Positions 1 to 16,056 of a DNA stretch of 32,888 bases are shown here, in pieces. Each line of letters starts with the position of its first letter. Position 1 is the stretch's first letter. The notes beneath the pieces were generated by a model. That model ran no database searches. It had not been told where the DNA came from and was given only the letters and a program-made list of their open reading frames with translations. The translations under genes and the position numbers were made by a program. The DNA is taken from IMG/VR virus record IMGVR_UViG_3300022591_000040, positions 1 to 32,888 of that record, one strand, 5' to 3'. Source of the stretch: a virus.

Positions 1-196
1 CAAGGCGATTCCATTCTTTACCGGAAAGTGACAGACCATACATAAATGCCCACGTTGTATTGACTTCGCGGACTCCCATCTCTGTTATATGGTAACACTC
101 TTTGGACACTTCGAAGAGCATCTCCATATATTCCTTAATGTCCGAATCTTGTCTGTCGCGGTGTTCTTCATAGATTCTTTGTAACTCACTATCCAT
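1..196 (-). CDS. Class I SAM methyltransferase-like protein, N-terminal part (cut by window edge)
   Basis: Only the first 65 codons are visible; the frame is open to position 1. The ATG at 196 overlaps the stop of the upstream glycosyltransferase by 8 bases and has a GGAG ribosome binding site 8 bases before it. After a charged N-terminal helix, residues about 36 to 52 read as HITEMGVREVNTTWAF, which resembles the beginning of the SAM-binding motif I strand and loop in cephalosporin-hydroxylase/TylF-type methyltransferases (E-x-G-V-R followed by S/T-W-A). The catalytic half lies outside the window, so the substrate cannot be inferred. As the next gene after a heptosyltransferase-like protein, it may methylate a sugar or glycan. 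The family call rests on one motif and is tentative. Confidence 0.5.
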   Translation of the reverse strand, partial: MDSELQRIYEEHRDRQDSDIKEYMEMLFEVSKECYHITEMGVREVNTTWAFMYGLSLSGKEWNRL

Positions 197-1064
197 TTAC
201 GATTCTCCTAATCTCTGCGACGACTTGTTCATCTGTCAAGTATGGGTCTAGGTCTATGTGTCCAGGTTTACCATAGAACCGAGGCCCCAATTTCAAATCC
301 TTCACCTTCCGTACTACTCCATTCCATCCGTACAACTGATGCACAAAATCAGACGTGAGGATTGTCTTGGTTCCTACACCATATGCAACGTTCGCTAGCC
401 CACCCTCTGCACCAATGAAGTAATCGCACTGTTTGATAAATGAAGCTTGTTCTGCAAACTCATTCTCGCGTCCCATTGTTTGATACACATTCAACGGTAC
501 ACCGACTTCCACCAATGCAAAATCCTTTCCAAGTTGCTCAAGTATCCATTCAATCTTTCGGTTACTTCCACCATACCCTTTATAGGGTACGTCTATCCCC
601 CTCTTGTATTCCTCTTCGGTAAAGAGAAATGACTTCTCTTTCCAATTACTCAATACTGCAAGAACCTTATATCCAGCCGCGCGTACTGATTTGAACCTAA
701 GTTCCCACGTTTCATCGTATTCGGGCACCGTGTACACTTTGAAATCTGCATTTGGTTTTCGTGCTCCGGCTGCAATTTGGTCTTGCAATGCTGGTTGAAT
801 GTCAAACGTATGAATAGGTTGTTTGAGTACTACATCATATGCATTGAAGAATCCACTTGGCGGAATAGGAAATGGTGACGGAACATTCGCAATGGTAACA
901 TCATCTATCCACGGATTACGTTTCAATAATGGTACAACTTGTGGGAATCCCACATAGTAACTCACCACTTGAAACTGTCCCTCTTCTTTCAGTCTCTTTG
1001 CAACGGAACTTCCAAAGAGAATATCACCAAGAAATCCTGATGTTACATACAGACACGTTCTCAT
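189..1064 (-). CDS. Glycosyltransferase family 9-like (heptosyltransferase-like) protein
   Basis: A 291-residue protein of GT-B type. It opens with a strand and glycine loop (LYVTSGFLGDILFGSS), as in heptosyltransferases and ADP-heptose:LPS transferases. Near the C-terminus it has an acceptable GT9 nucleotide-sugar pocket (FIGAEGGLANVAYGVGTKTI, around residues 215 to 235), where the family usually has a D/E-G-G-x-x-H/N-x-A pattern. GT9 enzymes move a sugar from a nucleotide-activated donor to a glycan. An ATG 15 bases upstream is possible. I chose the ATG at 1064 because it forms an ATGA overlap with the upstream methyltransferase stop and has AGAGGG in front. The sugar and acceptor are unknown. 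Confidence 0.65.
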   Translation of the reverse strand: MRTCLYVTSGFLGDILFGSSVAKRLKEEGQFQVVSYYVGFPQVVPLLKRNPWIDDVTIANVPSPFPIPPSGFFNAYDVVLKQPIHTFDIQPALQDQIAAGARKPNADFKVYTVPEYDETWELRFKSVRAAGYKVLAVLSNWKEKSFLFTEEEYKRGIDVPYKGYGGSNRKIEWILEQLGKDFALVEVGVPLNVYQTMGRENEFAEQASFIKQCDYFIGAEGGLANVAYGVGTKTILTSDFVHQLYGWNGVVRKVKDLKLGPRFYGKPGHIDLDPYLTDEQVVAEIRRIVNG

Positions 1065-1816
1065 TTTACCCTCTTCCATACTCTGTTATGTCCTACTGCA
1101 AATAGGTGTTGGAAACTATCATCTGGTTCAATCACGTCTCGTACTGCATTGGATACGTCCGGCAAACCAAACCAATCCATCCGTATCAATCCCCTCGGCA
1201 TCTTCAAGTAGTTCGATGCATCGTCCATCACCAGGAATCCGCCCACCTTCACCAATGGTGCGTACCATTTCAAATCCGATTCTACCGTTTCATAGTCGTG
1301 TCCACCGTCTATGAACACAATATCAAATCCTTCCGGCATTGAGATACCCTTAACGAATATCATTATGTTCATCTGCGTAGACAACCCCTCAATGATATGC
1401 GTTCTATCCAGTTTCAATCCAAACTCTGCGTAGACTTCTGCAATGATTTGCCGGTAGTCTACATCTGGATGTTTAGAGTACTTGTCGCCATCATTGGACA
1501 ATGGTGTTACGCCGTAAATATGTGGTTCCTTTTTCAGTTCATTGGATATGAGTTGTACGAGACTGATTACTTGCCCCATATACACACCAATCTCTAGGAA
1601 CTTGAATTGTACTGGCATTTGTTCTACCAGCAATTCCCATAGGTAATGCAATGAACGGTTTCCATACCCTCTGCGCGTCCGTACAATGTAGTCGCGGTGA
1701 TTCTTGAGATAGTATGTTGCGTTCACTTTCTGTTTGAACTGAATCCAAATATCGCGGTGAACTTCTTCGGTGTCTTTGTAGTTTGCAATCAGTTCATCAA
1801 AATTCGTGTAGTCCAT
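1061..1816 (-). CDS. Class I SAM-dependent methyltransferase (family 24-like)
   Basis: A 251-residue protein with a Rossmann-type methyltransferase core. Motif I is FLEIGVYMGQVISLV (about residues 73 to 87). Later comes FDIVFIDGGHDYETV, the acidic strand-and-loop motif with the D-G-x-H-x-Y signature of Methyltransf_24 proteins, and then GGFLVMDDAS. The frame is open 29 codons further upstream, inside the previous gene. The ATG at 1816 directly follows that gene's stop and has AAAGGA 5 to 6 bases before it, so it is preferred. Between two glycosyltransferases, a role in O- or N-methylation of a sugar is likely but inferred. Confidence 0.75.
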   Translation of the reverse strand: MDYTNFDELIANYKDTEEVHRDIWIQFKQKVNATYYLKNHRDYIVRTRRGYGNRSLHYLWELLVEQMPVQFKFLEIGVYMGQVISLVQLISNELKKEPHIYGVTPLSNDGDKYSKHPDVDYRQIIAEVYAEFGLKLDRTHIIEGLSTQMNIMIFVKGISMPEGFDIVFIDGGHDYETVESDLKWYAPLVKVGGFLVMDDASNYLKMPRGLIRMDWFGLPDVSNAVRDVIEPDDSFQHLFAVGHNRVWKRVK

Positions 1817-1817
1817 A

Positions 1818-2606
1818 TTATCCTTTCGGTGTCCATACTGGAGGAATCCTACTTCTGTTGTATTCGTTCTCTGCCTTTCGTGCGATTGCCGCTTGTCTTT
1901 CACGTTCTATTACTTGATGCATAAGAATAGTTGGTACATCAATTGCTCCAAAAGGTATCCCTTGTTGTTCAAGGTGGTGACGTATCAAGCATTCTCCAGC
2001 AAATCTCACATTCGATGTTCGATAATATTGTTCTATCCAATTAGTCAAGTCCGAATACACATTCATATAATAGGAACCCGAAAATGCAAATTGGTCGTTG
2101 ATTCCATCGTGATGAGCACAATTGTTCACAACATAAACCTTCGTCATTGGATAGTCAGACAAAAGTAACGGTGATTCCAAACAGAAATCAAATCGTAACC
2201 GAATCACTACATCATACGTAAATCGGTTTTCCATTTCATAACGTGTTTTCAGTTCATTCGCAGCCCATATAGAATAGATTGCACTCAATTGATAGAACAC
2301 ATTGATAAACTCAAGTTTTCTATTCGCGTAGTCTTTTACATCGAACTGTCGTTGTGGTTCAATCTTTACTACCTTTGGGTGATACAAGTCAGTGATAATT
2401 TCTGGTGTCTGCGCGGATATTGGTTCACTTGCTTGATACATCCCGGCAGCCTGCATAATCACTTTTCCAGCTACACTTTCGTCAAACCACGTATGAACAA
2501 ATACGTCAACTTCACCATTGGGGTCAATGAGATTCTTCTTTATATGTTCGTGATAGGTTCTCTCTATCCAGCGCGGTTGACCTGATATACACAATGCAAT
2601 TCTCAC
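1818..2606 (-). CDS. Putative glycosyltransferase (RIALCISGQPR type)
   Basis: A 262-residue protein. It begins with RIALCISGQPR and has a VHTWFD segment and an arginine-flanked acidic motif, VIRLRFDF. That pattern occurs in poorly characterised GT-A-like proteins of polysaccharide and phage sugar clusters, where the aspartate would help bind a metal and nucleotide sugar. I prefer the GTG at 2606: it overlaps the HAD gene stop as GTGA, it puts the first beta strand at the N-terminus, and AGGAG lies about 10 bases before it. A GTG at 2633 would also be in frame but adds a polar tail with no obvious role. The function is inferred from motif and neighbours. Confidence 0.55.
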   Translation of the reverse strand: MRIALCISGQPRWIERTYHEHIKKNLIDPNGEVDVFVHTWFDESVAGKVIMQAAGMYQASEPISAQTPEIITDLYHPKVVKIEPQRQFDVKDYANRKLEFINVFYQLSAIYSIWAANELKTRYEMENRFTYDVVIRLRFDFCLESPLLLSDYPMTKVYVVNNCAHHDGINDQFAFSGSYYMNVYSDLTNWIEQYYRTSNVRFAGECLIRHHLEQQGIPFGAIDVPTILMHQVIERERQAAIARKAENEYNRSRIPPVWTPKG

Positions 2607-2947
2607 GGTATCTGTTCTCCTATTCGTATCCACGATTCAAGTCTTATGGCTTTATCGTCAATGTACACGTCCGCGTAAGGTTTACCAAAATGGATTTCAT
2701 CATATGGTATTTTCCATTTATCCAACCACTCAAAAAGTGTCTTACCTTGCAATGCAATCACTCTTCCCACATTTGAGCTACACGTTACCATATGCCGTGC
2801 GGTGTCGAGAATGATATAGTATCCCTCACTCTTCCATCTTTGAATAGTCTCAACTGCACCCGGCAAGGGGTCTACGTCTGCGTAGGATTGGTCAGGGCGT
2901 TTCGTAGTACAAATGCAACCATCTATGTCAATGCAGATTCTCAGCAT
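2603..2947 (-). CDS. HAD-superfamily phosphatase, capsule-biosynthesis type
   Basis: A 114-residue minimal HAD phosphatase without a cap domain. HAD motif I is CIDIDGCIC, with nucleophile Asp7 and acid Asp9. Motif II is the threonine in ILDTARHM, the motif III lysine is in FGKP, and motif IV is the paired aspartates of YIDDKA. Proteins of this size and pattern occur in capsule and other sugar clusters and remove a phosphate from a sugar phosphate or similar intermediate. The gene overlaps the end of the nucleotidyltransferase by 20 bases. A TTG three codons upstream is the alternative start. With the kinase and nucleotidyltransferase before it, it likely completes a small activated-sugar pathway. 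Confidence 0.8.
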   Translation of the reverse strand: MLRICIDIDGCICTTKRPDQSYADVDPLPGAVETIQRWKSEGYYIILDTARHMVTCSSNVGRVIALQGKTLFEWLDKWKIPYDEIHFGKPYADVYIDDKAIRLESWIRIGEQIP

Positions 2948-3698
2948 ATTTCTCAATGTCCTCTGGTGTTCCTATTGGTACGATTCCCTCTACCTTCAAT
3001 CCGAATACGTCTATACCTTTGTCAATCAATTTCTGCATTGACTGTGACATATAGTATTCTCTTGTCTGCGGTTGATTCAAAATTTCATCTGCTGTTGACT
3101 CAAACAACATCAACTTACTGTAATAGTATACTCCCATAATCGGTTTTCCGCCCGCCTTCAATGCGATAGGGTCTTTCTCAGCAACTCTCAATATGTTGTC
3201 GTGATTCGGAAATACGAAACACCACTTTGCACTATCGTCCATAGGTTCAAAATAACACAACGCACCAAAGAGAGTACTCTTTCGTCGCATCTTATCAATG
3301 AACCATAGGAAGTTGATTCCATCATACCGATTGTCTGCATCCAATATCAATACAGGTTCATTTTGTGCTGAACTTGGAAGAGTCAACGTAGTCTGCAATG
3401 CAGTTTCGAGCGGGCCTCTTGTCAACCGTGGAAACTTCACAACATTGACACCTTCACCGTAAATGTCGTGCAAGGTCTGTTCGTGTTCCCAATCTTCTTC
3501 ACGTATTGCGAACGTCAACGAATAATCAATAACCCACAATGGTGTTTCGTCGTGGTGACTGATAAATGGCATTGAGCGCGTTGTCCATTCGATAATGGGT
3601 TTCCCCTTAATCGGAATGAACGGTTTGGATACGGTATATCCAACACCTCTAAAGCGTTTCCCTTCGCCAGCCGCACATACAATTATATTGAGTTTCAT
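2928..3698 (-). CDS. Sugar nucleotidyltransferase (NTP_transferase family)
   Basis: A 256-residue protein that transfers a nucleotide from NTP to a sugar (or small polyol) 1-phosphate. The N-terminus carries the family signature AAGEGKRFRGVGYTVSKPFI, with the nucleotide-binding glycine/arginine loop and a lysine. LILDADNRYD in the middle holds the metal-binding aspartates. The C-terminal IVPIGTPEDIEKYAE is typical of these enzymes. The ATG overlaps the stop of the kinase gene as ATGA. Length and motifs fit a complete single-domain enzyme. The sugar and nucleotide cannot be read from sequence. Confidence 0.85.
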   Translation of the reverse strand: MKLNIIVCAAGEGKRFRGVGYTVSKPFIPIKGKPIIEWTTRSMPFISHHDETPLWVIDYSLTFAIREEDWEHEQTLHDIYGEGVNVVKFPRLTRGPLETALQTTLTLPSSAQNEPVLILDADNRYDGINFLWFIDKMRRKSTLFGALCYFEPMDDSAKWCFVFPNHDNILRVAEKDPIALKAGGKPIMGVYYYSKLMLFESTADEILNQPQTREYYMSQSMQKLIDKGIDVFGLKVEGIVPIGTPEDIEKYAENLH

Positions 3699-4675
3699 AG
3701 ATATCCTAAAACGTCGTTGAGAATTTGTACGCCCGTTGCGTACATTACTTTCTGTCTGTCGAGTGAATCATAATGACGCGCACACATACTGATGAACAGC
3801 AATCCTTCCACCAACATTGCGTTTACATTTCCGTTCTTCATTCCGAAGAACTCATTGTAGAATACGTCTTTGATAACTGCACGTTGGTCATTACGGCCAA
3901 TGGTAAAATGAATCCTATTATCTTCGTGTTCCTGCGTAAAGTGGTCGTTGATAATAAACTCATATCCACCTGCATATGAGTGCATCAACTTAGCAAAATC
4001 ATATATCGGGTCACCGTATACTCCTTTCGCGCCAAAAGAACCGCGCGGGTCTATGAACTTGAACACCGGTTCATCATTCACGAATCCGCAGAGTATATTT
4101 GCGAAACAGAAATCGCCGTGTATGAACGAGAATGGTATGTTCGTTATCAATCGTTTGTCTATCTGTTCTTTTATCTCAGGCCACACTACATTGAAATTTT
4201 TGTATGATGCATTGTTGATAAAGATGGTGGAGTTCTCCATCAACCGTCTCAGTTCAGGAAACTTTTGAAGATTGTCATATTCCGTTATCGTTTTGTCTAT
4301 GAACATACGTGTGCGACACACATTGTATTGAATCCGTTCTGATGTGTCGAATGGATGATAGTTAGAGAACAATTGAAGTATCGCGCCCAACTTACGTGCG
4401 ATTGAAACCCACTGTTCACGTGAAAGAGCACCATCGGTCATATAGTCTCCAAGAGACTTATACCCTGGGTAATAATCCATCACTATACACCATCGGTTTG
4501 TAACAGTATCAAATCCAGCTGATAGTATACGCGGAAAAAACGGCTTCAATGTGTCGGGAATATGATTGTAATACTCAATCTCGTCTTGTAACTTGTCCGT
4601 TGTGCTGGACTTTATGATTGTTCCGTACAACCTATTGAACTCCACACTGTTATATGTTCGTGTCGTGAATTTCAT
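3695..4675 (-). CDS. Aminoglycoside-phosphotransferase-fold kinase, sugar-cluster type
   Basis: A 326-residue kinase of the APH/choline-kinase fold. The catalytic loop is FIHGDFCFANILCG, with Asp188 and Asn193. The metal-binding segment is FIDPRGSFG, with Asp209. GDPIYDFAKLMHSY follows, as in the sugar-cluster branch of this fold. Lys22 in the early IIKSST strand is a candidate ATP-contacting lysine. The gene is translationally coupled on both sides by ATGA overlaps, to the galactosyltransferase-like gene before it and the nucleotidyltransferase after it. It probably phosphorylates the sugar (or sugar-like molecule) that the next two enzymes process. An antibiotic-resistance role is unlikely given this position. 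Confidence 0.8.
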   Translation of the reverse strand: MKFTTRTYNSVEFNRLYGTIIKSSTTDKLQDEIEYYNHIPDTLKPFFPRILSAGFDTVTNRWCIVMDYYPGYKSLGDYMTDGALSREQWVSIARKLGAILQLFSNYHPFDTSERIQYNVCRTRMFIDKTITEYDNLQKFPELRRLMENSTIFINNASYKNFNVVWPEIKEQIDKRLITNIPFSFIHGDFCFANILCGFVNDEPVFKFIDPRGSFGAKGVYGDPIYDFAKLMHSYAGGYEFIINDHFTQEHEDNRIHFTIGRNDQRAVIKDVFYNEFFGMKNGNVNAMLVEGLLFISMCARHYDSLDRQKVMYATGVQILNDVLGYL

Positions 4676-5388
4676 TTCTCTACCCTAAAGTTTTTTATCT
4701 TCAACCACGTAACGTTTTCCCATCCTGCATCTGTCGGATAGTTAGCGACCACATCGGCTTTTGATTGTTTCAATCCATACCCTACAAAATCCCACCAATG
4801 AGAAAATATCTGCTCGTTGTTTTGAAAGTCGGGGTCTGTCGGTGGTGGTCCAGAATCTGGATGATGCAATGCATAGAACAATCCACTACCACGCACTTGT
4901 TTCAATCCCAATCTTCCAATACGAGCACGCATATCATCGTCGTCTTTGCCCCATCCTACATATAATGGGTTCAGTCCATTGAGTTTTTCAAATGTTCCCC
5001 TTCGCATCACATAGACGCCACCACTATGGTTTCCCACGTCTATGTGAAAGTGCCTGTATCCACCGGGTATATCTTCCAATCGTTTAGGTGTCGCGTTATC
5101 TTCCGCAAGAAACACCACTTGTTTCACCGGATAATATGGGTTATCGTCTAGCGCATTATACACCACGTTGTCGGACGGAATGTAATCAACGTCGTGGAAT
5201 ACAACTTGTTCTCCGTATGTCCATCTGAACGCGATATTGTACAACATACTCAAACGGAACTTCTCATTGTCGTCTTGTTCTGCAATGACTATCTCATAGT
5301 CACCGAGAAGAACTTCCCTTAATCGCGGAACGAGAATAGAAAGGTGTTCCTCTCTGTTTCTATACGGAATGATTATCGAGCGTTTCAT
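4672..5388 (-). CDS. GT7-like (galactosyltransferase-like) GT-A glycosyltransferase
   Basis: A 238-residue GT-A enzyme that starts directly with the nucleotide-binding strand RSIIIPYRNREEHL. The metal-binding DxD motif is FHDVDYIP (Asp66/Asp68). GGVYVMRRGTFEKLNGL and VGWGKDDDDM follow, closely matching the acceptor and catalytic region of beta-1,4-galactosyltransferase-type GT7 proteins (GGV...NG...WGxEDDD). The start is either the ATG at 5394 or the ATG at 5388. The second has a weak GGA 7 bases before it and is used here. It overlaps the preceding glycosyltransferase gene by about 29 bases. The sugar and acceptor are unknown. Confidence 0.8.
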   Translation of the reverse strand: MKRSIIIPYRNREEHLSILVPRLREVLLGDYEIVIAEQDDNEKFRLSMLYNIAFRWTYGEQVVFHDVDYIPSDNVVYNALDDNPYYPVKQVVFLAEDNATPKRLEDIPGGYRHFHIDVGNHSGGVYVMRRGTFEKLNGLNPLYVGWGKDDDDMRARIGRLGLKQVRGSGLFYALHHPDSGPPPTDPDFQNNEQIFSHWWDFVGYGLKQSKADVVANYPTDAGWENVTWLKIKNFRVEK

Positions 5389-6244
5389 ATTCATCCAATC
5401 GTTTGTTTATGAGTTGTAACCACCGTGGATTGCGTTCATATTGATGAACGATACAGAACAATTTTCCATTTGACGTTTCTACAAACCCATCATTTTTCAT
5501 TATTGGTTCTGCGGTGATAAGTTTCGAACGGAACGCATCTATCTTTGAAGGGTCTGCGGTCACTCCGACTTGACAGGCCCAACCTTCGTTGTGGTGACAG
5601 AAATATGTATCGTCTCTCAACAACGTTCTCAAAAGTATCGCGAATGAGCATTGGTCTGCTGGATACGTGCGTCCATTCGCAAGAAAGTAATTAACCAAGA
5701 GAAGGTCTTTGAAAAACGGCATCACTCCAGCAATTGTACCACAATTGTACGTAGGGAAGTCTTTCATCATCTCATACACATACCCACCATATGCTCGATA
5801 CAGATTCTCCGTACCCCACGGTTCGTCTCTGTACAGGATACCCTCTGCCGGCGCGAGAAGTTTCTCTGTTCCTTCCGAAAGTTTCCCTTGAAGAAACTCT
5901 ATCGGGTCTCTCTGAAAGATTACGTCTCTCGTATCAGTGAGAACGACAAACCGAACATCATCTTGTTCCGAGAGATATTGCCAAGCGTGAAAGTAACGCA
6001 TTTCGTGTGAGATGGTTCCCGGCGCTCCCATATGGTCACGCGAATGATGATTCAACGGTTGACCATAAATGTCATTGTTCACGCGGACAATCTCAATACC
6101 GTGAGCAATACATTTCTTCTCCGTCTCTTCGTCCATACGATATGTGAGAAGGACTCTCTTTCCGTTGAAACATTCGGACGTGAGAACCCATCCGCGCAGT
6201 TGACTCCAATCGTAACCGTCTGCACCACCTATGAGAACATTCAT
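5360..6244 (-). CDS. GT-A-type glycosyltransferase with TDTRD motif
   Basis: A 294-residue protein. The key segment FVVLTDTRDVIFQRDP (Asp104, Asp107) resembles the metal and nucleotide-sugar binding motif of GT-A enzymes found in phage and polysaccharide clusters, where T-D-x-R-D is followed by F-x-x-D-P. YNCGTIAGVMPFF and YPADQCSFAILL further on resemble the acceptor-side half, with a D-Q pair typical of this group. It begins with an ATGA overlap with the tandem-paralogue gene at 6241 to 6615. No transmembrane segment is seen, so it is probably cytoplasmic. Confidence 0.65.
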   Translation of the reverse strand: MNVLIGGADGYDWSQLRGWVLTSECFNGKRVLLTYRMDEETEKKCIAHGIEIVRVNNDIYGQPLNHHSRDHMGAPGTISHEMRYFHAWQYLSEQDDVRFVVLTDTRDVIFQRDPIEFLQGKLSEGTEKLLAPAEGILYRDEPWGTENLYRAYGGYVYEMMKDFPTYNCGTIAGVMPFFKDLLLVNYFLANGRTYPADQCSFAILLRTLLRDDTYFCHHNEGWACQVGVTADPSKIDAFRSKLITAEPIMKNDGFVETSNGKLFCIVHQYERNPRWLQLINKRLDEYETLDNHSV

Positions 6245-6615
6245 TCTACAACTTCCTTATCCAATACACGAATTATGGCTGTTTGATTCCAATGTTTGTC
6301 TGCGTTCCAATCATACAACACTGAACGATACTTCGTATTCGGTTTGAGTGGGCCTATTCCCATAACGTTACTTACCGATTCACCATTCTCGTCCAATGTC
6401 GGAAATCCCATTCCATCCGTTACGAGAACTTCTTCACGGATAACCATTGACTCCGCAACTTCACCCATTTTCTTTTTCCAATCATCGTGTGTCAAGTCGA
6501 ACATAAACATCTGCGCACTACCTGACGTGATGTATGAAAAGAAAATTGGGTGCGGTTCTTTATATAATGGATTTGTTGTTTCCATTATTGTACCTTGACC
6601 ATCTATTACTTTCAT
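6241..6615 (-). CDS. Unknown protein, second copy of a tandem paralogous pair
   Basis: A 124-residue protein of unknown function. It matches its upstream neighbour (6612 to 6932) in order and spacing: PLYKEPHPIFFSYITSGS against PLYKDPMPIFYTFTSSGS near the N-terminus, then a central V/E-T-D/N-G-x-G-x-P stretch, then PLKPNTKYRSVLY against PLKSNTKYSAIKY near the C-terminus. The two probably arose by duplication and then diverged. The ATG at 6615 overlaps the first copy's stop as ATGA and has GGGAG in front. No signal peptide, membrane segment or catalytic motif is visible. The length suggests a small beta-rich domain. Confidence 0.75.
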   Translation of the reverse strand: MKVIDGQGTIMETTNPLYKEPHPIFFSYITSGSAQMFMFDLTHDDWKKKMGEVAESMVIREEVLVTDGMGFPTLDENGESVSNVMGIGPLKPNTKYRSVLYDWNADKHWNQTAIIRVLDKEVVE

Positions 6616-6932
6616 ATCTCTTCTCCCAGGACGTATACGGTACCGTTCCCTTCATATTTGATTGCACTGTATTTTGTGTTTGATTTGAGAGGTGTTCCAT
6701 CTGTAAGAACCCATTCAATATTCGGTAGACCACTACCGTTTGTTTCAACTACGGCGACTGATGCAGTTGTTGCTGTCGCGATTTGATTCAAGAATCGTTT
6801 GTGATTGTCTTGGTCAAGATACCACGGTCGAACTTCACTACTTCCTGAAGAAGTGAATGTGTAGAAAATCGGCATAGGGTCTTTGTACAATGGACTTGAC
6901 GGTTCACCGCGTAACATACTTAAGAAACTCAT
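6612..6932 (-). CDS. Unknown protein, first copy of a tandem paralogous pair
   Basis: A 106-residue protein of unknown function, the shorter member of the tandem pair with 6241 to 6615. It keeps the PLYKDPMPIFY segment, the serine/threonine-rich TFTSSGSS stretch, the central ETNGSGLPNIEW and the PLKSNTKYSAIKYEG segment. The pair sits between a GT2 and a GT-A glycosyltransferase. It starts 4 bases after the GT2 stop, with AAAGGT about 7 bases before the ATG. Possible roles are a small virion or decoration protein, or an accessory of the glycan pathway; nothing in the sequence decides this. Confidence 0.75.
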   Translation of the reverse strand: MSFLSMLRGEPSSPLYKDPMPIFYTFTSSGSSEVRPWYLDQDNHKRFLNQIATATTASVAVVETNGSGLPNIEWVLTDGTPLKSNTKYSAIKYEGNGTVYVLGEEI

Positions 6933-6936
6933 AATG

Positions 6937-7566
6937 TCACCTTTGCATTTGTGAGTACATTTGGTTTTGTTTTACTTGTCGTTCTATTGTCTTTGGATGA
7001 AAGAGTGCCCATATGATTTCTGCAGGCAACTTCGTAACTATTCCAGCACCTTTTATCTGTTCGTGAACCTTGCCAAACCAATATATGTCTCTTGAATTTC
7101 GGAAGATACGACCTTGATAGTCTGGCCAATTGACCACGGGCAGTTCCACATTCTCTAGATTGGACATTTGCCATCCCCACTCTTGTATATGTTGTGGTGT
7201 CAATCCCGTAACGGTATTGACTCGCGGAACCCAATACAAATCAACCGTAGGATTCGTGTCAATGATGTTACCAATTTCTTCCACCAATATACTTGAAGGA
7301 TACTCGTCTGCGTCTATCTGAAAGATGAACTCTCCGTGGCATTTTGACGTGAGGAAATTCTTGTGTTCTGCAAAACTCCCATCAAACTTTCGACACACTA
7401 CTTTATGTCCGCGTATAGGAAGTACGATACCTTCAGCATTAGTATCTTGCAGAATGACTATCTCATAATCGTAAGTGACTTCTGCAAGCCACCTATGCAG
7501 TTTTGATAGTAGGGAATCCAACTCTTGAATTTCATCTTTGAACGTGATTGCATAACTGATTTTCAT
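6937..7566 (-). CDS. Family 2 glycosyltransferase
   Basis: A 209-residue GT-A enzyme of the GT2 type. It starts ISYAITFKDEIQELDSLL, the usual first strand and helix, and has a short acidic YEIVILQD strand. The metal-binding motif is FIFQIDADEYP (Asp85, Asp87), in the D-x-D-E form common in lipopolysaccharide-type GT2 enzymes. The C-terminal part has GRIFRNSRDIYWFGKVHEQI, which matches the conserved R-x-F-R-N...G-x-x-H-E segment of that group. The protein is near the minimum length for this fold. The donor and acceptor are unknown. Confidence 0.85.
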   Translation of the reverse strand: MKISYAITFKDEIQELDSLLSKLHRWLAEVTYDYEIVILQDTNAEGIVLPIRGHKVVCRKFDGSFAEHKNFLTSKCHGEFIFQIDADEYPSSILVEEIGNIIDTNPTVDLYWVPRVNTVTGLTPQHIQEWGWQMSNLENVELPVVNWPDYQGRIFRNSRDIYWFGKVHEQIKGAGIVTKLPAEIIWALFHPKTIERQVKQNQMYSQMQR

Positions 7567-7574
7567 TTAGAACC

Positions 7575-8150
7575 TTACCCTTTCTTGATCGCACGTGCTT
7601 GAGCTTCTGCACGTACACGGTCTATAGCTTGTTTCATCAACTTCACTTCCTTTTCTTTCTTTTCAAGTGCAGCTTCATCTCTCTGTTCTTGAAGAGTGAA
7701 TCGGTACTCAATCAACTTGACGTTCGAAATACGATTGACTGTATACTCACGGTATAATTCCGGCAGTTCTGTCTTAACCAACTTTGGAAGCATTGGTTTC
7801 AACTTCGACTCATAGAATGATTTCGGACTTCCCACGTTAACCTTCAACAATGGTAGACGTAAATCCGCTTGCTGATTCAATCTCTTATTGAACCACAAAT
7901 CCACCTGTTGCACAATTTTCTCTACCACTTCAGGTCTGACTTCATCTATACGGAGTACGTGCATATTGCCGTGATAGACGGGATTCAATACAATCACCAA
8001 TGGTTTGGTTGTTTTCTTCTCGTCGTCTATGTAGGTGAACCATATGATTGCGCCTGGTTGCAGATTGGTCTTGTTGAACTGTTGCTCACTCAAGAAATTC
8101 CTCTTGTGCAACTCTAGGTAGTTTGGTAGTTTCTTCTTTACTTCCGGCAT
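7575..8150 (-). CDS. Unknown phage protein with N-terminal beta domain and basic C-terminal helix
   Basis: A 191-residue protein. The N-terminal third has LQPGAIIWFTYIDD followed by KPLVIVLNPVYHGNMHVLRID. This resembles a small beta-barrel seen in conserved phage proteins of the form P-G-x-x-x-x-F-x-Y...P-L-V. I cannot name the family. The last 45 residues or so are rich in Lys, Glu, Arg and Ala and look like one long helix or coiled coil. The ATG overlaps the end of the 42-residue membrane-protein gene by 13 bases. Either an assembly or structural role, or a nucleic-acid-binding role, would fit. Confidence 0.7.
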   Translation of the reverse strand: MPEVKKKLPNYLELHKRNFLSEQQFNKTNLQPGAIIWFTYIDDEKKTTKPLVIVLNPVYHGNMHVLRIDEVRPEVVEKIVQQVDLWFNKRLNQQADLRLPLLKVNVGSPKSFYESKLKPMLPKLVKTELPELYREYTVNRISNVKLIEYRFTLQEQRDEAALEKKEKEVKLMKQAIDRVRAEAQARAIKKG

Positions 8151-8266
8151 TTGAGTTCTCGAATTTTAGCTTTAAGTTTTATGTTTTCTGAAACTACCGT
8201 TGACCAATTAGCACTTACGAGAATGACCGCAACGCATATCCAAAATACTGCCCACGTACTTATCAT
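8138..8266 (-). CDS. Small single-pass membrane protein (42 residues)
   Basis: A 42-codon gene filling what would otherwise be a gap. It starts MISTWAVFWICVAVILVSAN, a hydrophobic stretch (residues 5 to 19) long enough for one membrane helix. A lysine/arginine-rich tail follows (NIKLKAKIRELKCRK), which by the positive-inside rule would stay in the cytoplasm. Support for coding is strong: the ATG overlaps the upstream stop as ATGA, GGAGG lies 5 to 6 bases before it, and its stop lies inside the start of the next gene. Possibilities include a holin- or spanin-like piece, a membrane anchor for the glycan enzymes, or a modulator of a host membrane protein. Confidence 0.75.
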   Translation of the reverse strand: MISTWAVFWICVAVILVSANWSTVVSENIKLKAKIRELKCRK

Positions 8267-8829
8267 TCTTTCCTCCCGACTAACGCACCGAGAAACGCAA
8301 CGGCGTTCTGAAAGTCATTCTTGTCAAACGTCTGCGATTTCTCCGTTGCAAGTCTGTATTGATATTTCTGCACTTCTGCGTTCGTAGATAAATATGATTC
8401 TATTTCTTCTTTTGTCAAAGGCACGGCAGGCGCACATACCCAATGCCACCCTTCGGGATCGGTGTCAGGATAGATGCATCCCTTTGTAGGTATGTTAATG
8501 ACAGACGGAAACCATACAATGTTCCGCACATTGTCCATCACCTTCAAATCTTGTACCAATTTCGGAGAATTGACACGAGCAAGTTCTGCAGCTGGCGAAC
8601 CTACAACCATATCACTGGTCGTGGTATATCCACAACGGACACATAGATAATGTTCTATGTATTCTTCAATCGTATATTCTCCATTCTCAATGGTATTCTC
8701 ATCCCTACGACTGATTTCCTTCTGCGTCATACACGTCCCTTCTCCATTACATATTGGACAATTCACCGCTTCTTCAATCACTTCAAACGGTTTCGCTTCC
8801 GGATTGTATTCCACTTGTCTCTGTCTCAT
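8263..8829 (-). CDS. Zinc-ribbon protein of unknown function
   Basis: A 188-residue protein with a likely zinc-binding site made by NCPICNGEGTC (about residues 23 to 33) and LCVRCGYTTTSD (about 62 to 73), two CxxC knuckles spaced as in zinc ribbons. The rest has no motif I recognise; a GWHWVCAP segment and a mostly helical C-terminus are visible. The ATG has GGAGG 9 bases upstream, and the gene overlaps the previous glycosyltransferase by 47 bases, the largest overlap in this part of the window. Binding of nucleic acid or a protein partner is plausible but unproven. Confidence 0.7.
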   Translation of the reverse strand: MRQRQVEYNPEAKPFEVIEEAVNCPICNGEGTCMTQKEISRRDENTIENGEYTIEEYIEHYLCVRCGYTTTSDMVVGSPAAELARVNSPKLVQDLKVMDNVRNIVWFPSVINIPTKGCIYPDTDPEGWHWVCAPAVPLTKEEIESYLSTNAEVQKYQYRLATEKSQTFDKNDFQNAVAFLGALVGRKE

Positions 8830-10288
8830 TTGTTTTTTCCTCCGTTGTTACTATCGGATTTTCCATCTTACCTTGCGGTATTGGACTATCGTGTTCACTC
8901 ATCGGTTCTGGAAGTTGCATACTCTTCACTTCCATTTCACTATTGAGTGTACCTATCTCTGTTTTAGTCGCTGGTGGTACTATTGGTTTCAACTTCGGAA
9001 GTTTGATTGAACCAAGTTTCGGAATTGTTGCGACTACTTCATCCGGCACTTCGAACTTTGGAAGATATTTGTCGAGTATCTTGACAAACTCTTCGTGCAT
9101 CCGATTGAATGAAAAGTTCTGTTCAGAGAACATCGCTTGTTTCAATGCGTTTTGTTTGTGTTTGTTGTAGTCTCTCCACAGCTGTGACATCACATTAGAT
9201 GCAACTTGATAGTTGATATAGAACCACGACGACTCTTCAACGATTACGTCTTTCCATACAGCTGTCGGATGGACTTTCTGTATCTGTCCCGGCAATAGCA
9301 TCGAGAACTGTTTGTTCAAAAAGTCAAGCTGTCCACTCCACGCTGGCGCGATTACGGGTTTTCGACTCAAAGATGCCTCCAACAAAGGACGACCGAATCC
9401 CTCACCCTTCGTGAATGAGATATGCGCCTTCACTTTGTTGTTATTGTAGAGACTATTCATCTCATCGTCTGTTAAATCACCGTGGATAAGATAGACACTA
9501 GGCAATGGTTTATCTGTTGCGACCATTTTCTTAATCATCGCAATGCGTCTCATACATTCATTGCGGTCTGAAATGGAATATGTACCAAGTGATGTTTTGA
9601 GAATTAACGCAGGCGGATTGGGTACGTTCTTGAATGTCTCAAGAAACACCTTTATCAATCCACTCACGTCTTTACGGTCGTGGAACAATTCACCTTGCAA
9701 CCAATGCCCAACAAATAGAAAACAGAACGACTCAGTAACCCCCTTCAATTCGGAACGTACTGAAGTTGATGTATTGCTCTCGTAATGGAATACACTCGTA
9801 TCCACACCCTCAAATAATATCTCAACTGGAACGTTGCATTTCAACTTTCCAATGGGTTGCTTTGTCCTATCATCCAACTGTGTGTAATTCGTTTTGTCGA
9901 ATACTTCCTTTGAATGTTTAGATGGAACGATAACCATATTCATTCGGTTCATTCCTTCTAGCCACACCGCAGAACAGTGTGTCGTTTCAATACCGGCAGT
10001 AATACCGATATTGTACTGTCCCATTTTCAGAAACTCATTCGGTACGGTGATGTGAACAAAGATTTCCGGTTTGCGCGGAAGTTTTGGTTCCTTCAATATA
10101 CGCTTGAAGATTTCTCTGTCCCTATCGGTGTCAAGGTTGATGTATGCCGTTTCACCCCACCGAGTTCCGAGTATCTTTATGTCATATCTGTCCATCTTGA
10201 TAAGTGAACGCACTATGTCTCTAGAGTGTTCGCCATATCCACTCCTTGTCGCAATGGCAGCTTGTACTACCAATAATGGTTTTCCCAT
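8783..10288 (-). CDS. Family 4-type GT-B glycosyltransferase with disordered tail
   Basis: A 501-residue GT-B enzyme. The N-terminal domain begins PLLVVQAAIATRSGYGEHSR, with the glycine-rich acceptor loop. The donor-binding domain holds FTKGEGFGRPLLEASLSRKP, in which Glu296 and Glu304 form the E-x7-E motif of GT4. After about residue 420 the sequence becomes a tail rich in Pro, Ser, Thr and Glu (for example PIVPPATKTE and EEKTNETETSG), probably unstructured. A TTG start 42 bases upstream is possible but lies inside the preceding small gene. The ATG at 10288 has AAAGG 8 bases before it and is preferred. Confidence 0.85.
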   Translation of the reverse strand: MGKPLLVVQAAIATRSGYGEHSRDIVRSLIKMDRYDIKILGTRWGETAYINLDTDRDREIFKRILKEPKLPRKPEIFVHITVPNEFLKMGQYNIGITAGIETTHCSAVWLEGMNRMNMVIVPSKHSKEVFDKTNYTQLDDRTKQPIGKLKCNVPVEILFEGVDTSVFHYESNTSTSVRSELKGVTESFCFLFVGHWLQGELFHDRKDVSGLIKVFLETFKNVPNPPALILKTSLGTYSISDRNECMRRIAMIKKMVATDKPLPSVYLIHGDLTDDEMNSLYNNNKVKAHISFTKGEGFGRPLLEASLSRKPVIAPAWSGQLDFLNKQFSMLLPGQIQKVHPTAVWKDVIVEESSWFYINYQVASNVMSQLWRDYNKHKQNALKQAMFSEQNFSFNRMHEEFVKILDKYLPKFEVPDEVVATIPKLGSIKLPKLKPIVPPATKTEIGTLNSEMEVKSMQLPEPMSEHDSPIPQGKMENPIVTTEEKTNETETSGIQSGSETV

Positions 10289-10293
10289 CTGTT

Positions 10294-10470
10294 TTACCTT
10301 TCGTATCGAGTATGCGATTCTTTGATACAATCAAGTATGTAATTCAAGTCACTTCGCGTTCCTTTTGTTGGATTTGTTGCATATGTATCCACCAACAATT
10401 TGGCTTGTTTTGCACACTTATTTATCTGTTTCACGCGATACGCGCTTAGCGCTGTTTCTAGTCGTCTCAT
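10294..10470 (-). CDS. Small basic protein of unknown function (58 residues)
   Basis: A 58-codon gene between two larger ones. The ATG overlaps the upstream stop by one base (TAATG), and AAAGGAG lies about 8 bases before it. The stop is 5 bases from the next gene's ATG. The product starts MRRLETALSAYRVKQINK and reads as mostly helical and basic, with two cysteines far apart and no recognisable motif. Spacing and ribosome binding site support it as a real gene, despite its small size. No function can be proposed. Confidence 0.7.
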   Translation of the reverse strand: MRRLETALSAYRVKQINKCAKQAKLLVDTYATNPTKGTRSDLNYILDCIKESHTRYER

Positions 10471-10757
10471 TATTTGTACTCCTTTTCTGGATATGATGGG
10501 TCGTTCTTGAATCCATCTTTGAGTGCCTTGATAAAATCCTCTTTCAACTTCTGTCCCAACTTCTCTCGAATCTCTTCATCTGTCACACTCGCTTGATAAT
10601 ACGCCTTCATATCTTGCGTAAGTTCCATACCAAGACCGAATGAGATTTTCTTCCGTGGTGTGAATGTTATCGGGTCGAAAATCTGCGGAGATGCGTAGAA
10701 CACAAAATCTCCGACTAGTACAACACGACCATCATCTTTCAATTCTACGTCTACCAT
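10470..10757 (-). CDS. Unknown protein (95 residues)
   Basis: A small acidic-to-neutral protein. The first half is beta-rich (VDVELKDDGRVVLVGDFVFY) and the second half helical and charged (TDEEIREKLGQKLKEDFIKAL). A longer frame opens with an ATG at 10787 inside the previous gene. The ATG at 10757 has a near-perfect AAGGAGG 6 bases upstream and is clearly better. I recognise no family. It lies in a run of unknown genes between two GT4-type glycosyltransferases. Confidence 0.7.
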   Translation of the reverse strand: MVDVELKDDGRVVLVGDFVFYASPQIFDPITFTPRKKISFGLGMELTQDMKAYYQASVTDEEIREKLGQKLKEDFIKALKDGFKNDPSYPEKEYK

Positions 10758-10767
10758 ATTCGCCTCC

Positions 10768-11598
10768 TTAATGTAATGCAGTTGCATTGATTGACGCCAT
10801 CACCGAAGCATTGAGTGCAGTTCTGACCGCAGTACTCAAACCATCATCCTCTTCTTCATCGTCTGTCGGTAATGTAATCGCATCCATTGCGGCTTGTATA
10901 CGTTCTTGTTTATCCATACGTTTCAATGCGTCCCGTATGACCGCCATATTCTCGTCTTGTTTCAGTTCCTCAATTGCATTGTCGAAATCCTTCTGCAAGT
11001 TCAAGGTAACTGCGGCAAGTTTTCTGATTGTATACTTACGCACTGGCCAGTCACGTTTTTCTTTCGCGTAATCCTCTTCCTCTTTGATTGCGTCATTCGC
11101 TTTTGTAATATCATCCCTTATATCTTCAGGAACCGTTGTGATACCTGCGCGATATGCAACGCCCGTCTCTTCAAACGGATCAGAATACTCAGGTGGAATC
11201 GGTACGTGTTTATATACGTTAATGTATTTGTCCAGCAACTTCGTCAAGAACGTAGGTCTATGACTCTCGTTATACGTTGTGTGCCATAGGTGGGGTATGT
11301 ACTCTCCCACTACCAGACGCATCTGTTGTTCATCTTGCAACTTCGTAACCCATTTCTGGATACGATTTGGTTCTTTCTCTTTTGGTAACGCAAGTCGGAA
11401 CGCACCGCTTTCGTGTCTCACAAACTGCGGCACGGCATATGGATACTCAAGAGGTAATCCCAAAAATGCATTACGTTGTGCATCTTGAAGCGTCTTTTCG
11501 TGTCTCTCCACAAGTCTAGACCCTTTAAGATATAGACGTGCGGCTCGTTCATACCGTGTCTTAAGACGGTAGTACTTCCATATTGATCTGATACTCAT
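10768..11598 (-). CDS. Unknown helical protein (276 residues)
   Basis: A 276-residue protein, mostly charged and helix-forming. The first 70 residues are rich in Arg, Tyr and Leu (IWKYYRLKTRYERAARLY). A middle region carries EEEDYAKEKRDWPVRKYTIRK. A run of acidic residues (DDEEEDDG, about residue 248 to 255) precedes a short alanine-rich C-terminus. No catalytic, zinc or membrane motif is visible. The ATG has GGAG 7 bases upstream. The protein could bind nucleic acid or take part in particle assembly, but nothing in the sequence shows which. Confidence 0.7.
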   Translation of the reverse strand: MSIRSIWKYYRLKTRYERAARLYLKGSRLVERHEKTLQDAQRNAFLGLPLEYPYAVPQFVRHESGAFRLALPKEKEPNRIQKWVTKLQDEQQMRLVVGEYIPHLWHTTYNESHRPTFLTKLLDKYINVYKHVPIPPEYSDPFEETGVAYRAGITTVPEDIRDDITKANDAIKEEEDYAKEKRDWPVRKYTIRKLAAVTLNLQKDFDNAIEELKQDENMAVIRDALKRMDKQERIQAAMDAITLPTDDEEEDDGLSTAVRTALNASVMASINATALH

Positions 11599-11610
11599 TG
11601 TTATTCTCCG

Positions 11611-12027
11611 TTAGGTTGTTTCCACGGACTTCACTGTTGAAGGGTCAACGAGAGAATCAGAATCTTGTTTCAAAGGACGTTTCGCAAGGACGCGAACAAA
11701 CCCACTTCGTTCCTCACCTTCCTTGATTGCGTTCTTATCCTTACTATCTTTGAAACGTTTCTTCGGCTTGAAATCAGGCGGGAACGTTTTCTTACGAAAT
11801 TCTGCAAGTTCCTTTTCGTAGTTCGGACCTGCCTGACGTTTGCGGTTTTCAATCAATTTCTGGTTATGTTCCGCATATTGTGCTTCAGAAATGAATCCGG
11901 CATTTATTGCGTTCTGCATCGAAGCAATCCTTGCGTTCGTATACTGCAAATTCTCTTCAAGACGCATCTTGCGAGCAATTTCGTGATACAAACACCATTT
12001 TGTCCATAGATAAGCTAGTAATCTCAT
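11611..12027 (-). CDS. Unknown basic helical protein (138 residues)
   Basis: A 138-residue protein with a tryptophan- and tyrosine-containing N-terminal helix (LLAYLWTKWCLYHEIARK). An Asn/Gln/Glu-rich helical stretch follows, then a lysine-rich segment (FPPDFKPKKRFKDSKDKN) and a polar Ser/Thr/Asp tail that is probably disordered. I recognise no domain. It follows the GT4 gene at 12030 with 2 bases between stop and ATG, and AAGG lies 7 bases before the ATG. In composition it resembles its downstream neighbour, so both may belong to one functional unit. Confidence 0.7.
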   Translation of the reverse strand: MRLLAYLWTKWCLYHEIARKMRLEENLQYTNARIASMQNAINAGFISEAQYAEHNQKLIENRKRQAGPNYEKELAEFRKKTFPPDFKPKKRFKDSKDKNAIKEGEERSGFVRVLAKRPLKQDSDSLVDPSTVKSVETT

Positions 12028-12029
12028 TG

Positions 12030-13544
12030 TTATACCTTATATAGTGTGAATTGTTTCCGTGGTTTGAAATTCGCAAACGCAGTATCCATACCTTCCATAA
12101 ACCTTCTTGCCATTTCATCAGCAGACATACCGACTGATGGAGTGAGCAAGTATTCGCGACCGAGAAGGCCAACTCGTTTTCGTTCGTCCCTTCCCATATC
12201 GTAGTACTCTCGTATGAGAGTTGCAACATCTTGCCACCGACACCTATCATCATAAATGTACGGCGTTGGTACTGATCCTTGGAGCGATAATGTAGCTGGG
12301 AAAATGGGTTTGCACCATTCTCCGTGTTTCGTGTAACGTCCATCGTGATTAGAACCCCACTCTTTATTGAAGTCTTCGATGGTCACTAACGAGCCATCTT
12401 CCTTCATAAACCCACATTGATCTTGTAACCCACCGGTCACATTCACAATGATTGGTGTCCCGGCCATCAGGGACTCCGCAGTACCTAAACCAAATCCTTC
12501 ATTCGAAGAAAGGTTAATGGTAACGTCTGCAAGGTTAAAGATAAGGTTCATAAACCGTGGTTCAATACGTTTATCGGAAATCGCAATTTTGTGTTTGATT
12601 TCCATATCATCAATTACAGCTTGAAGGTTTGTTCCTGCTTCATCCACAACTGCGGTATGCATCATCAACAAACACTTCGCCGCCTTCTCTGGCGGTAGTT
12701 CATTACAAAACTTATTGTACGCAAGGATAACATCGGAAGTCATTTTCCTTCGCACATTTCTATTGACATACAAAAGGACAAACTCAGGAACGAAATCCTT
12801 CAACATCATCTTCTTCAATTCTTGAAGTAAGGTATAGTCGGACTTCAATGCCGTTTCTTGAATGTCTACCAGCGCCCCCTTTTCATCCTTCTCTTTGTGC
12901 GATTTACCTGTAAAGACTTTCTGCATCTTTCCTGGATTCTGTTCCGTGACAGGATAGAAAATCCTTGTAGGGATTCCGTGAGGAATATACTGCACTTGGT
13001 CAGGCCTTGGTGGATACTTCGTCCATACGTGTTTCACAATGTTGTATGTCTGTTTGGATATACAACTAATCCAATCACACGACTCGTAGTATCCTTCATT
13101 GTATTTTGGAAACGGCATATCATCCCATACGTGGTAAAACAGCATAGGCATTTTCTGACGGAGTTCGTGTTCGTGGTTGAATAACCATCCCCAAAACCGA
13201 GGGTCGGTATAGGGCATAATCGCATCTATTTTCTCTGTGTCAATAAGGTAGCGAACAAAATCAATGTTTCCATACCCATTGAAAGGATAGATGATAATAC
13301 TGGCATCGTCCAATCCCATTTCTTCATTGACGGCCTGAGAAATGTCAACTCGTTTGTTGACTTCCGGGTGGTTGATTGCACCACCTATCTGTACCCAGTT
13401 GTAATGATGCGCGGTGTTGACTACAATCTCACGTGACATTGTGCCAATACCACTACTCATTCGTAGGTCGTCTGACAATAATAGGATTTTCTTACGTTGG
13501 TCTTTCGGTATGTAAGGGAACCCATTGATTAACTTCTCTTCCAT
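12030..13544 (-). CDS. Family 4-type GT-B glycosyltransferase
   Basis: A 504-residue GT-B enzyme. The N-terminal domain starts KKILLLSDDLRMSSGIGTMS, with a glycine-rich loop at residues 30 to 35. The donor domain contains LSSNEGFGLGTAESLMAGTP, in which Glu349 and Glu357 form the GT4 E-x7-E motif, and Arg/Lys residues around 262 to 267 (NRNVRRK) are at the usual phosphate-binding position. The gene follows one of the two gaps longer than 50 bases and has AGGAAGG about 7 bases before its ATG. It may therefore begin a transcription unit for the left-hand sugar genes. Confidence 0.85.
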   Translation of the reverse strand: MEEKLINGFPYIPKDQRKKILLLSDDLRMSSGIGTMSREIVVNTAHHYNWVQIGGAINHPEVNKRVDISQAVNEEMGLDDASIIIYPFNGYGNIDFVRYLIDTEKIDAIMPYTDPRFWGWLFNHEHELRQKMPMLFYHVWDDMPFPKYNEGYYESCDWISCISKQTYNIVKHVWTKYPPRPDQVQYIPHGIPTRIFYPVTEQNPGKMQKVFTGKSHKEKDEKGALVDIQETALKSDYTLLQELKKMMLKDFVPEFVLLYVNRNVRRKMTSDVILAYNKFCNELPPEKAAKCLLMMHTAVVDEAGTNLQAVIDDMEIKHKIAISDKRIEPRFMNLIFNLADVTINLSSNEGFGLGTAESLMAGTPIIVNVTGGLQDQCGFMKEDGSLVTIEDFNKEWGSNHDGRYTKHGEWCKPIFPATLSLQGSVPTPYIYDDRCRWQDVATLIREYYDMGRDERKRVGLLGREYLLTPSVGMSADEMARRFMEGMDTAFANFKPRKQFTLYKV

Positions 13545-13603: not shown

Positions 13604-13996
13604 TTATACAAAAGGTTCAAATATTCGACCTTTGGGAAGTTCTATAGCATCCCCAGCCTTGATTTTGATAACTTTTTCATAGGATTTTCCTTCATCATCA
13701 GGAAATATGGACTTCAAAAGCACCACGGGTTTCTTCAACGCTAGCGCGGCTCCCAAATCAAAGTGTGAACCTTTCGACTCCTTGTTCCATATGATATACA
13801 CAACGTCACACTCGCGGATTGCTCGCAGTTCCGTTTCTACAATGTTCAATCCTGTGGGATCATTCTCTTGTTCAACGTCACGTTGCGGATAGAATACGGT
13901 GTGTCCCTCTGATTCGAACTTCTCCACATAGTATTTCGCTGTATCGGTTGTGTACTCTGTCGCCATACGGACAGGACAAATGAGATATATTTTCAT
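13604..13996 (-). CDS. Nucleoside 2-deoxyribosyltransferase-like protein (second of two)
   Basis: A 130-residue single Rossmann-like domain. It starts with MKIYLICPVR, the usual first strand and loop of the nucleoside 2-deoxyribosyltransferase superfamily. ECDVVYIIWN and KGSHFDLGAALALKKPVVLL follow, corresponding to the strand, the G-S-x-F-D/E-x-G-A motif and the last strand of this fold. In true deoxyribosyltransferases a glutamate in that motif is the nucleophile; here the corresponding acid appears to be an aspartate. The function may therefore be another N-glycosidic reaction or nucleotide binding. The start overlaps the dCMP deaminase stop as ATGA. Confidence 0.65.
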   Translation of the reverse strand: MKIYLICPVRMATEYTTDTAKYYVEKFESEGHTVFYPQRDVEQENDPTGLNIVETELRAIRECDVVYIIWNKESKGSHFDLGAALALKKPVVLLKSIFPDDEGKSYEKVIKIKAGDAIELPKGRIFEPFV

Positions 13997-14496
13997 ACGT
14001 CTGCAATCCTTTCTTCTCTTGTGAACCAACTACCACCATCGGGTTCCTTGTCTAGAATCTCAACATCTACTCCACCTTCTTGAAGTATTTGTCTTGCTAT
14101 AACAAAATCCTCTGCCCATCGTGCGTCCGCATCGCTATCTCCCTTGTACTTGCGTCCGTCAATGATTACGGCTTTGATTCCACTCTGTACTATTGCGCGA
14201 GCGCAATCCGAACAAGGATGCCACGCAGTATACATACTGCACCATCCAGTCGGTGTTCCGTGAAGTGCAGCTGCGAAGATTGCATTTCTCTCGGCGTGTT
14301 CCATCCACTTATACTTCTCTGGGCGAACATACCTTGATTCAATTGTGTCGTCTACTCCACGCGGAAATCCGTTGTAACCAACTGAACGGACATTATGTTC
14401 ATCGTCTACTATAACCGCACCGGTTTTTGTTGAGGGGTCACGTGACCACGATGCAACCAAATCAACCATTGCGAAAAACTTTTCATTCCAATTCAT
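13993..14496 (-). CDS. dCMP deaminase
   Basis: A 167-residue zinc-dependent deaminase that converts dCMP to dUMP, supplying thymidylate synthesis. The zinc site and proton shuttle are plain: HAERNAIF (His67, Glu69) and HPCSDCARAI (Cys95, Cys98). The early WSRDPSTKTGAVIV and VGYNGFPRGVDD segments are typical of dCMP deaminases, including that of phage T4. A longer frame begins inside the previous gene. The ATG at 14496 has AAGGA 6 bases before it and starts 2 bases from the previous stop. With the RNR, dNMP kinase and MazG-like proteins it belongs to the phage's nucleotide pathway. Confidence 0.9.
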   Translation of the reverse strand: MNWNEKFFAMVDLVASWSRDPSTKTGAVIVDDEHNVRSVGYNGFPRGVDDTIESRYVRPEKYKWMEHAERNAIFAAALHGTPTGWCSMYTAWHPCSDCARAIVQSGIKAVIIDGRKYKGDSDADARWAEDFVIARQILQEGGVDVEILDKEPDGGSWFTREERIADV

Positions 14497-16052: not shown

Positions 16053-16056
16053 TCGT

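Follow-up and report, generated by a model that had tools for sequence, protein, structure and literature searches.

IMG/VR virus record IMGVR_UViG_3300022591_000040, a stretch of 32,888 bases that was analysed in its entirety and is called the window here, carries a set of seven glycosyltransferases within its first 13,544 bases. Compared gene by gene with its relatives, this set resolves into two layers: a conserved core of three enzymes (GTa, GTb and GTc) lying beside the replication genes, and a hypervariable, apparently swappable sugar island that follows GTc. With a probability of roughly 0.45, we consider that the two layers constitute an entirely soluble phage glycan-assembly system acting on a cytoplasmic acceptor, which we infer is most likely a virion protein. 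More tentatively, the same organisation would mean that widespread, mostly uncultured T4-like phages, including those of Bacteroidota, make complex glycoproteins in which a stem laid down on a virion protein by the three core enzymes bears an exchangeable, lineage-specific and methylated outer glycan, a phage equivalent of the capsid glycans of chloroviruses. Clusters of sugar genes in cyanophages have been known since at least 2010, and their function is unsettled to the point that a role as stuffer DNA has been considered (PMC3037559). The existence of such clusters is not new; as far as the literature searched extends, the novelty lies in telling a fixed core apart from a swappable periphery and in finding that a cultured phage carries this core.

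Viral contigs were scanned with alignments of the family-B DNA polymerase (PolB), of the GT-B-fold glycosyltransferase family of the window (GTp), of the APH-type kinase and of GTb, yielding 231 contig loci. Across these, a single gene order recurs: polymerase-clamp-loader-nuclease-SLOG-GTa-GTb-small protein-GTc. GTb directly follows GTa in every contig where this could be scored (99/99). In 58 of 60 contigs GTc comes within the next six genes after GTb, and in 88 of 89 the nuclease is among the six genes that precede GTa. Most of these contigs were recruited through GTb itself, and the unbiased figure is that of the set recruited through PolB, where all 14 contigs that carried the nuclease and were long enough to tell also had GTa. 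Since about a hundred contigs never show it split, the core is hard to regard as filler DNA. The island behaves otherwise: on average only 12% of its genes have a homolog in the island of another contig, against 54% in the upstream module. Among 132 non-redundant proteins from the islands of these contigs, 20 match epimerases, seven GT2 glycosyltransferases, seven Methyltransf_24 methyltransferases and six DegT aminotransferases, alongside nucleotidyltransferases, cytidylyltransferases, fucosyltransferase-type proteins and hexapeptide proteins.

All 46 assigned genes of the window lie on the minus strand. GTa (12030-13544, 504 amino acids) and GTb (8783-10330, 515 amino acids) belong to family GT4, the former matching Pfam Glycos_transf_1 at 9.5e-7, the latter matching the same family at 1.1e-4 and the glycosyltransferase family phrog_2170 at 8.8e-19. 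Both carry the EX7E pair expected of GT4 enzymes in the C-terminal GT-B domain; across family alignments of 25 sequences, E349/E357 are invariant in GTa, and E310/E318 invariant or nearly so in GTb. For both, the nearest solved structure is the chlorovirus GT4 enzyme B736L (3OY2, at 4.1e-17 for GTa and 3.7e-6 for GTb). GTc (6937-7566, 209 amino acids) is GT2-like, falling just under the Pfam Glycos_transf_2 cut-off at 1.1e-4, a cut-off that its homolog in Flavobacterium phage immuto exceeds. Between GTb and GTc lie a small zinc-ribbon-like protein (8263-8829), which has no Pfam match but has homologs in 58 loci, mostly in the same position, and a protein of unassigned function (7575-8150), for which a profile search gave homologs in 25 loci. 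Upstream, the core is announced by a PD-(D/E)XK nuclease (EXK; 16562-17494), 42% identical to its homolog in Microcystis phage Mel-JY01, and by a SLOG/YAcAr protein (15651-16091; Pfam YAcAr, 1.9e-8) whose position between nuclease and GTa is conserved.

Two further glycosyltransferases lie beyond position 13,544. GTp1 (17781-19196) and GTp2 (27021-28517, beside the DNA polymerase) are paralogs of 42% identity that share a family fold. The AlphaFold model for this family (pLDDT 86.8, pTM 0.87) has a GT-B fold, with its pair of Rossmann-like domains; the best Foldseek matches are SenB, MshA, OtsA and a glycosyltransferase of phage HY126, with E-values as low as 4e-11. A preliminary description of the sequence had reasoned that the seven enzymes of positions 1-13544 have different folds and cannot stem from recent duplication. 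This is partly right: GTa and GTb are, by profile comparison, ancient and distant homologs (hhalign E = 6.5e-12), and GTp1 and GTp2, outside that region, are paralogs.

The genes of the island, read from right to left, overlap throughout between 6932 and 189, an arrangement compatible with a single transcription unit. Among them is a triad comprising an APH-type small-molecule, probably sugar, kinase (3695-4675; Pfam APH 2.5e-6, with the HGD...N and IDPRG motifs retained), a sugar-1-phosphate nucleotidyltransferase (2928-3698; Pfam NTP_transferase 1.9e-9, matching phrog_3980 and with homologs in Synechococcus phages) and a HAD phosphatase of the EcbF/BcbF capsule type (2603-2956; TIGR01689 3.4e-21, under its curated cut-off). 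Judged by their families, the three form a natural set for sugar activation, a putative nucleoside-diphosphate (NDP)-sugar cassette. Relatives of the kinase were found by an alignment-based scan, where a scan with the single protein had found none. Around the triad are further glycosyltransferases: a GT7-family enzyme (4672-5394) that exceeds the cut-offs of both Pfam Glyco_transf_7N (3.6e-14) and 7C (4.4e-11), and an enzyme with a TDTRD motif (5360-6244), assigned to the GT-A type by that motif. The latter's family occurs in at least 540 viral stretches, its T103, D104 and D107 (TDxxD) are invariant in 19 relatives, and searches with relatives give matches to Nucleotid_trans and GT_PLOD, the best at 8.4e-5. 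The protein at 1818-2633, characterised in the preliminary description by its RIALCISGQPR stretch and probably starting with GTG at 2606, belongs to Pfam DUF7796 (5.1e-10). Its AlphaFold model (pLDDT 86.5) has GT-A glycosyltransferases as all of its top 50 PDB matches (best 2.9e-6), mostly of family GT6 though with TM-scores of just about 0.4-0.5; on this modelling, DUF7796 is predicted to be a GT-A glycosyltransferase domain most like GT6 enzymes. The weakest of the seven assignments is the putative GT9-like enzyme (189-1079, likely start ATG at 1064), which a single match to the heptosyltransferase model TIGR04414, at 2e-4 and far under its cut-off, hints at; it has no relatives in the loci searched. 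Single-sequence PDB searches with this protein and with that at 5360-6244 returned nothing useful.

The seven glycosyltransferases named at the outset are thus all supported, from solid cases (the two GT4 enzymes, GT7 and GT2) to this weak one. The two methyltransferases claimed alongside them fare unequally. That at 1061-1903 is complete and clear, an S-adenosylmethionine-dependent enzyme of Methyltransf_24/CmcI type (Pfam Methyltransf_24 1.1e-11, RMNT_CmcI 3.3e-6; likely start ATG at 1816), whereas the second is a 65-amino-acid open reading frame (2-196) truncated by the contig end, a probable methyltransferase N-terminus that is 44% identical over 45 amino acids to a 199-amino-acid protein, itself matching Methyltransf_24 marginally (E = 0.027). 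The suggestion that such a gene set could make a methylated glycan of several sugars, well beyond a single glucose on DNA, agrees with the gene content of the window and with that of its relatives, where the core is followed by epimerases, aminotransferases, methyltransferases, nucleotidyltransferases and glycosyltransferases. The triad, and GTp1 and GTp2 beyond position 13,544, had been overlooked. Two small tandem paralogs of unassigned function (6241-6615 and 6612-6932; 34% mutual identity), with no relatives in any locus searched, also lie inside the island, and are candidates for acceptors or decoration proteins.

From its composition, the island looks to have been assembled from gene families circulating among aquatic phages. 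A second uncultured clade carries, behind its helicase gene, a recurring cassette of a GT5360-family protein, a methyltransferase, a DUF7796 protein, a nucleotidyltransferase, an APH kinase, a dehydroquinate-synthase-like cyclase (PF01761, 6.7e-36) and a short-chain dehydrogenase (L324:7995-14385, with about 18-20 similar viral contigs, L343 among them); by its enzymes, this cassette seems suited to making an activated cyclitol or pseudo-sugar.

How the two layers might work together can be sketched from these enzymes. GTa, GTb and GTc would lay down the first, common sugars on the acceptor; the kinase, nucleotidyltransferase and phosphatase of the island would make an activated sugar, which further glycosyltransferases would attach together with others; and methyltransferases would cap the chain. 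The products of core and island would form one glycan, and each phage lineage would carry an outer glycan of its own. The preliminary description had left the acceptor open among virion protein, host surface and DNA base; the first two stay candidates, and the third becomes unlikely.

Sugar clusters of cyanophages and pelagimyophages have been proposed (PMC3037559, PMC7824862, PMC7029224) to alter glycans at the surface of the infected cell, such as lipopolysaccharide (LPS) or capsule, and so to block superinfection. Synechococcus phages S-SKS1, S-SM2, B23, S-CAM9 and Bellamy have a gene content similar to that of the window, and this, the capsule-type HAD phosphatase and a hypervariability that fits an arms race at the surface all lend themselves to such an explanation. 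Yet neither the initiating phosphoglycosyltransferase (PF02397) nor the PF13440 flippase, the two initiation and export families looked for, was found in 16 records, the proteins of the glycosyltransferase region have no transmembrane segments, and by a simple hydropathy rule transmembrane-like segments occur in only 5 of 269 island proteins compared with 67 of 601 proteins elsewhere in these genomes (Fisher p = 5e-7). The absent families and the scarcity of membrane proteins speak against self-contained, de novo synthesis of capsule or O-antigen. Moreover, phages of hosts with differing surfaces, Flavobacterium and, as given in the phage's record, Microcystis, have the GTa-GTb-GTc core in common. 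Remodelling of the host surface is plausible but somewhat less probable than a cytoplasmic acceptor. The same soluble character, together with a sub-threshold match of GTa to 'GT4-conflict' and the resemblance of GTp to the small-molecule glycosyltransferases SenB, MshA and BshA, could also be read as a sign that the enzymes modify a small metabolite, or a cytoplasmic protein of the host, as the phage takes over the cell; so many glycosyltransferases and such variable decorations exceed what inactivation of one target would need, and a target of this kind is improbable. Glycosylation of a virion protein, which we prefer, has its own difficulties. Enzymes of the accessory families are also encoded in cyanophage clusters assigned by others to host LPS (PMC3037559, PMC7824862), soluble glycosyltransferases can act on host lipid-linked intermediates, and the hydropathy rule behind the membrane comparison is a simple one. 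The core adjoins replication genes and not capsid or tail genes, sequence similarity within GT4 is little informative on the acceptor, and B736L itself has no proven acceptor, given that NY-2A capsid glycans lack mannose (PMC9614988).

Were DNA the acceptor, a modified base would bear the sugar chain made by the glycosyltransferases and the triad would supply the activated sugar, as proposed for the arabinosyl-hydroxymethylcytosine (arabinosyl-hmC) of phage RB69. The triad is indeed homologous to the RB69-type glmU-like (nucleotidyltransferase plus APH) and HAD genes (PMC6024577), the window encodes a dCMP deaminase and a protein resembling deoxynucleoside monophosphate kinases (Pfam DNMK), and the glycosyltransferases are placed among replication genes. 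However, the window's kinase is nearer to that of S-SKS1 (39% identity) than to the RB69-type enzyme (23%), as is its phosphatase (about 51-52%, against about 31-32% for the Mosigvirus homolog), and searches of the window, a contig fragment, matched neither an arabinose-5-phosphate (SIS) isomerase nor a thymidylate-synthase-fold protein such as the hydroxymethylase. The 7-deazaguanine route (DpdA plus QueC) is present in 5 of 16 core-bearing records, where DpdA was sought with a protein query and Pfam TGT is void as a test, missing DpdA even in immuto. A thymidylate-synthase-fold gene occurs in 4 of 15 core-clade records, three with typical thymidylate synthase scores and one (G002) divergent and hydroxymethylase-like. 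In several large core-bearing genomes, Mel-JY01 among them, neither the 7-deazaguanine route nor a hydroxymethylase was seen. The comparison shows a correlation, and some of the records are incomplete, but a core that occurs with differing DNA-modification routes, with an RB69-like locus set apart from the glycosyltransferase island (G002), or with none of these is independent of the chemistry of the DNA base, and DNA is therefore an unlikely acceptor.

The RB69-like locus of G002 (57525-63972; L277/L278) combines a divergent thymidylate-synthase-fold protein, a dUTPase-like protein, a HAD protein, a nucleotidyltransferase-APH fusion, a GT-B-type protein and a C5-methyltransferase-like protein, and is separate from the glycosyltransferase island of the same genome. 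An early interpretation of the window's triad as the RB69 arabinosylation pathway was dropped as the main reading on account of this separation and of the closer S-SKS1 versions. Base modification may nonetheless occur in the phage of the window in another form: a QueC-like protein with a cysteine cluster, under its NCBIfam cut-off, is encoded at 19927-20673 and, given DpdA and QueC in several core-bearing relatives, the phage may make 7-deazaguanine DNA. Two nucleoside 2-deoxyribosyltransferase-like proteins (13604-14029 and 14766-15230), with no relatives among the loci searched, lie near the dCMP deaminase.

Read from right to left, the window encodes a DnaB-type helicase, a B12-dependent ribonucleotide reductase, a family-B DNA polymerase, a sliding clamp, a clamp loader and the PD-(D/E)XK nuclease before the glycosyltransferase region is reached. 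The contig is probably a fragment, and the sugar island would therefore run on beyond position 1. Promoter and terminator scans of the window returned sites no more numerous than in shuffled sequence, and defence-system models matched only the QueC-like protein and the nuclease. By its DNA polymerase, the closest cultured phage is Mel-JY01 (43.6% over the full length); a megablast of 20 kb of the window against phage records gave no match, so that close DNA relatives are absent from that collection. A cyanophage identity, at first read from Mel-JY01 and the Synechococcus matches, was abandoned: GTa is also found in immuto and, more distantly (23%), in Rhodothermus phage RM378, and a cyanobacterial host cannot be assigned with confidence.

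Among cultured phages, a close parallel to the glycosyltransferase region is that of Flavobacterium phage immuto (NC_055915, 48-60 kb), which has the same series of nuclease, GTa (45% identity), GTb (43.5%), small protein and GTc, followed by a block of aminotransferases, a methyltransferase, a mannosyltransferase, an epimerase and a further glycosyltransferase. It differs from the window in these island genes, in having a 7-deazaguanine DNA modification set annotated in another part of its genome, and in its DNA polymerase, which is of family A, so that the glycosyltransferase block travels with the nuclease and not with PolB. Being cultured, immuto offers a handle by which virion, surface and DNA acceptors could be told apart directly. 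Mel-JY01 (PP395634, 83-90 kb) shares the replication module and the GTa-GTb-GTc order with the window, but its island content is different and no homologs of the triad were found there. Its GTa homolog is annotated as two open reading frames (PP395634.1 83441-84932; L002:33442-34933) that match consecutive parts of the window's GTa, through either a sequencing error or a true split.

With the LPS or capsular polysaccharide clusters of cyanophages (S-SM2, S-SKS1, P-SSM2 type) the island itself shares the families of its nucleotidyltransferase, HAD phosphatase, APH kinase and DUF7796 protein and the clustering of sugar-activating enzymes with glycosyltransferases, represented in the window by the triad, its glycosyltransferases and a methyltransferase. 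GTa and GTb were not found in Synechococcus phages, and the sugar genes of cyanophages are grouped close to hli, phoH or tRNA genes (PMC3037559). The sporadic presence that such clusters show among related phages holds for the window's island (12% sharing) but not for its core (99/99 in order). The arabinosyl-hmC locus of RB69 and other Mosigvirus phages likewise has a homologous nucleotidyltransferase and APH kinase, fused in the RB69 type, adjoining a HAD phosphatase; unlike the window fragment, it has a KpsF isomerase and a thyA-type gene.

It is in the capsid glycosylation of chloroviruses (PBCV-1, NY-2A) that the organisation as a whole finds its counterpart. These differ from the phage of the window in being giant viruses of eukaryotes, with genes scattered and not gathered in one block, and their glycan is proven on the capsid, whereas a virion glycan of the window phage is putative. 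Both systems rely on soluble, virus-encoded glycosyltransferases and methyltransferases: most PBCV-1 glycosyltransferases are predicted to be soluble and cytoplasmic (PMC9614988), and chlorovirus capsid glycans consist of a conserved core with virus-specific decorations (PMC5408694), much as the phage genes divide into fixed core and variable island. The parallel is real in organisation and, by analogy, may extend to the acceptor; among bacteriophages, virion glycans have been reported for mycobacteriophage Che8 (as cited in PMC11256854). If the virions of these phages do carry a glycan, it would bear on their adsorption, stability and recognition, and autonomous glycosylation in the style of the chloroviruses would extend to bacteriophages.

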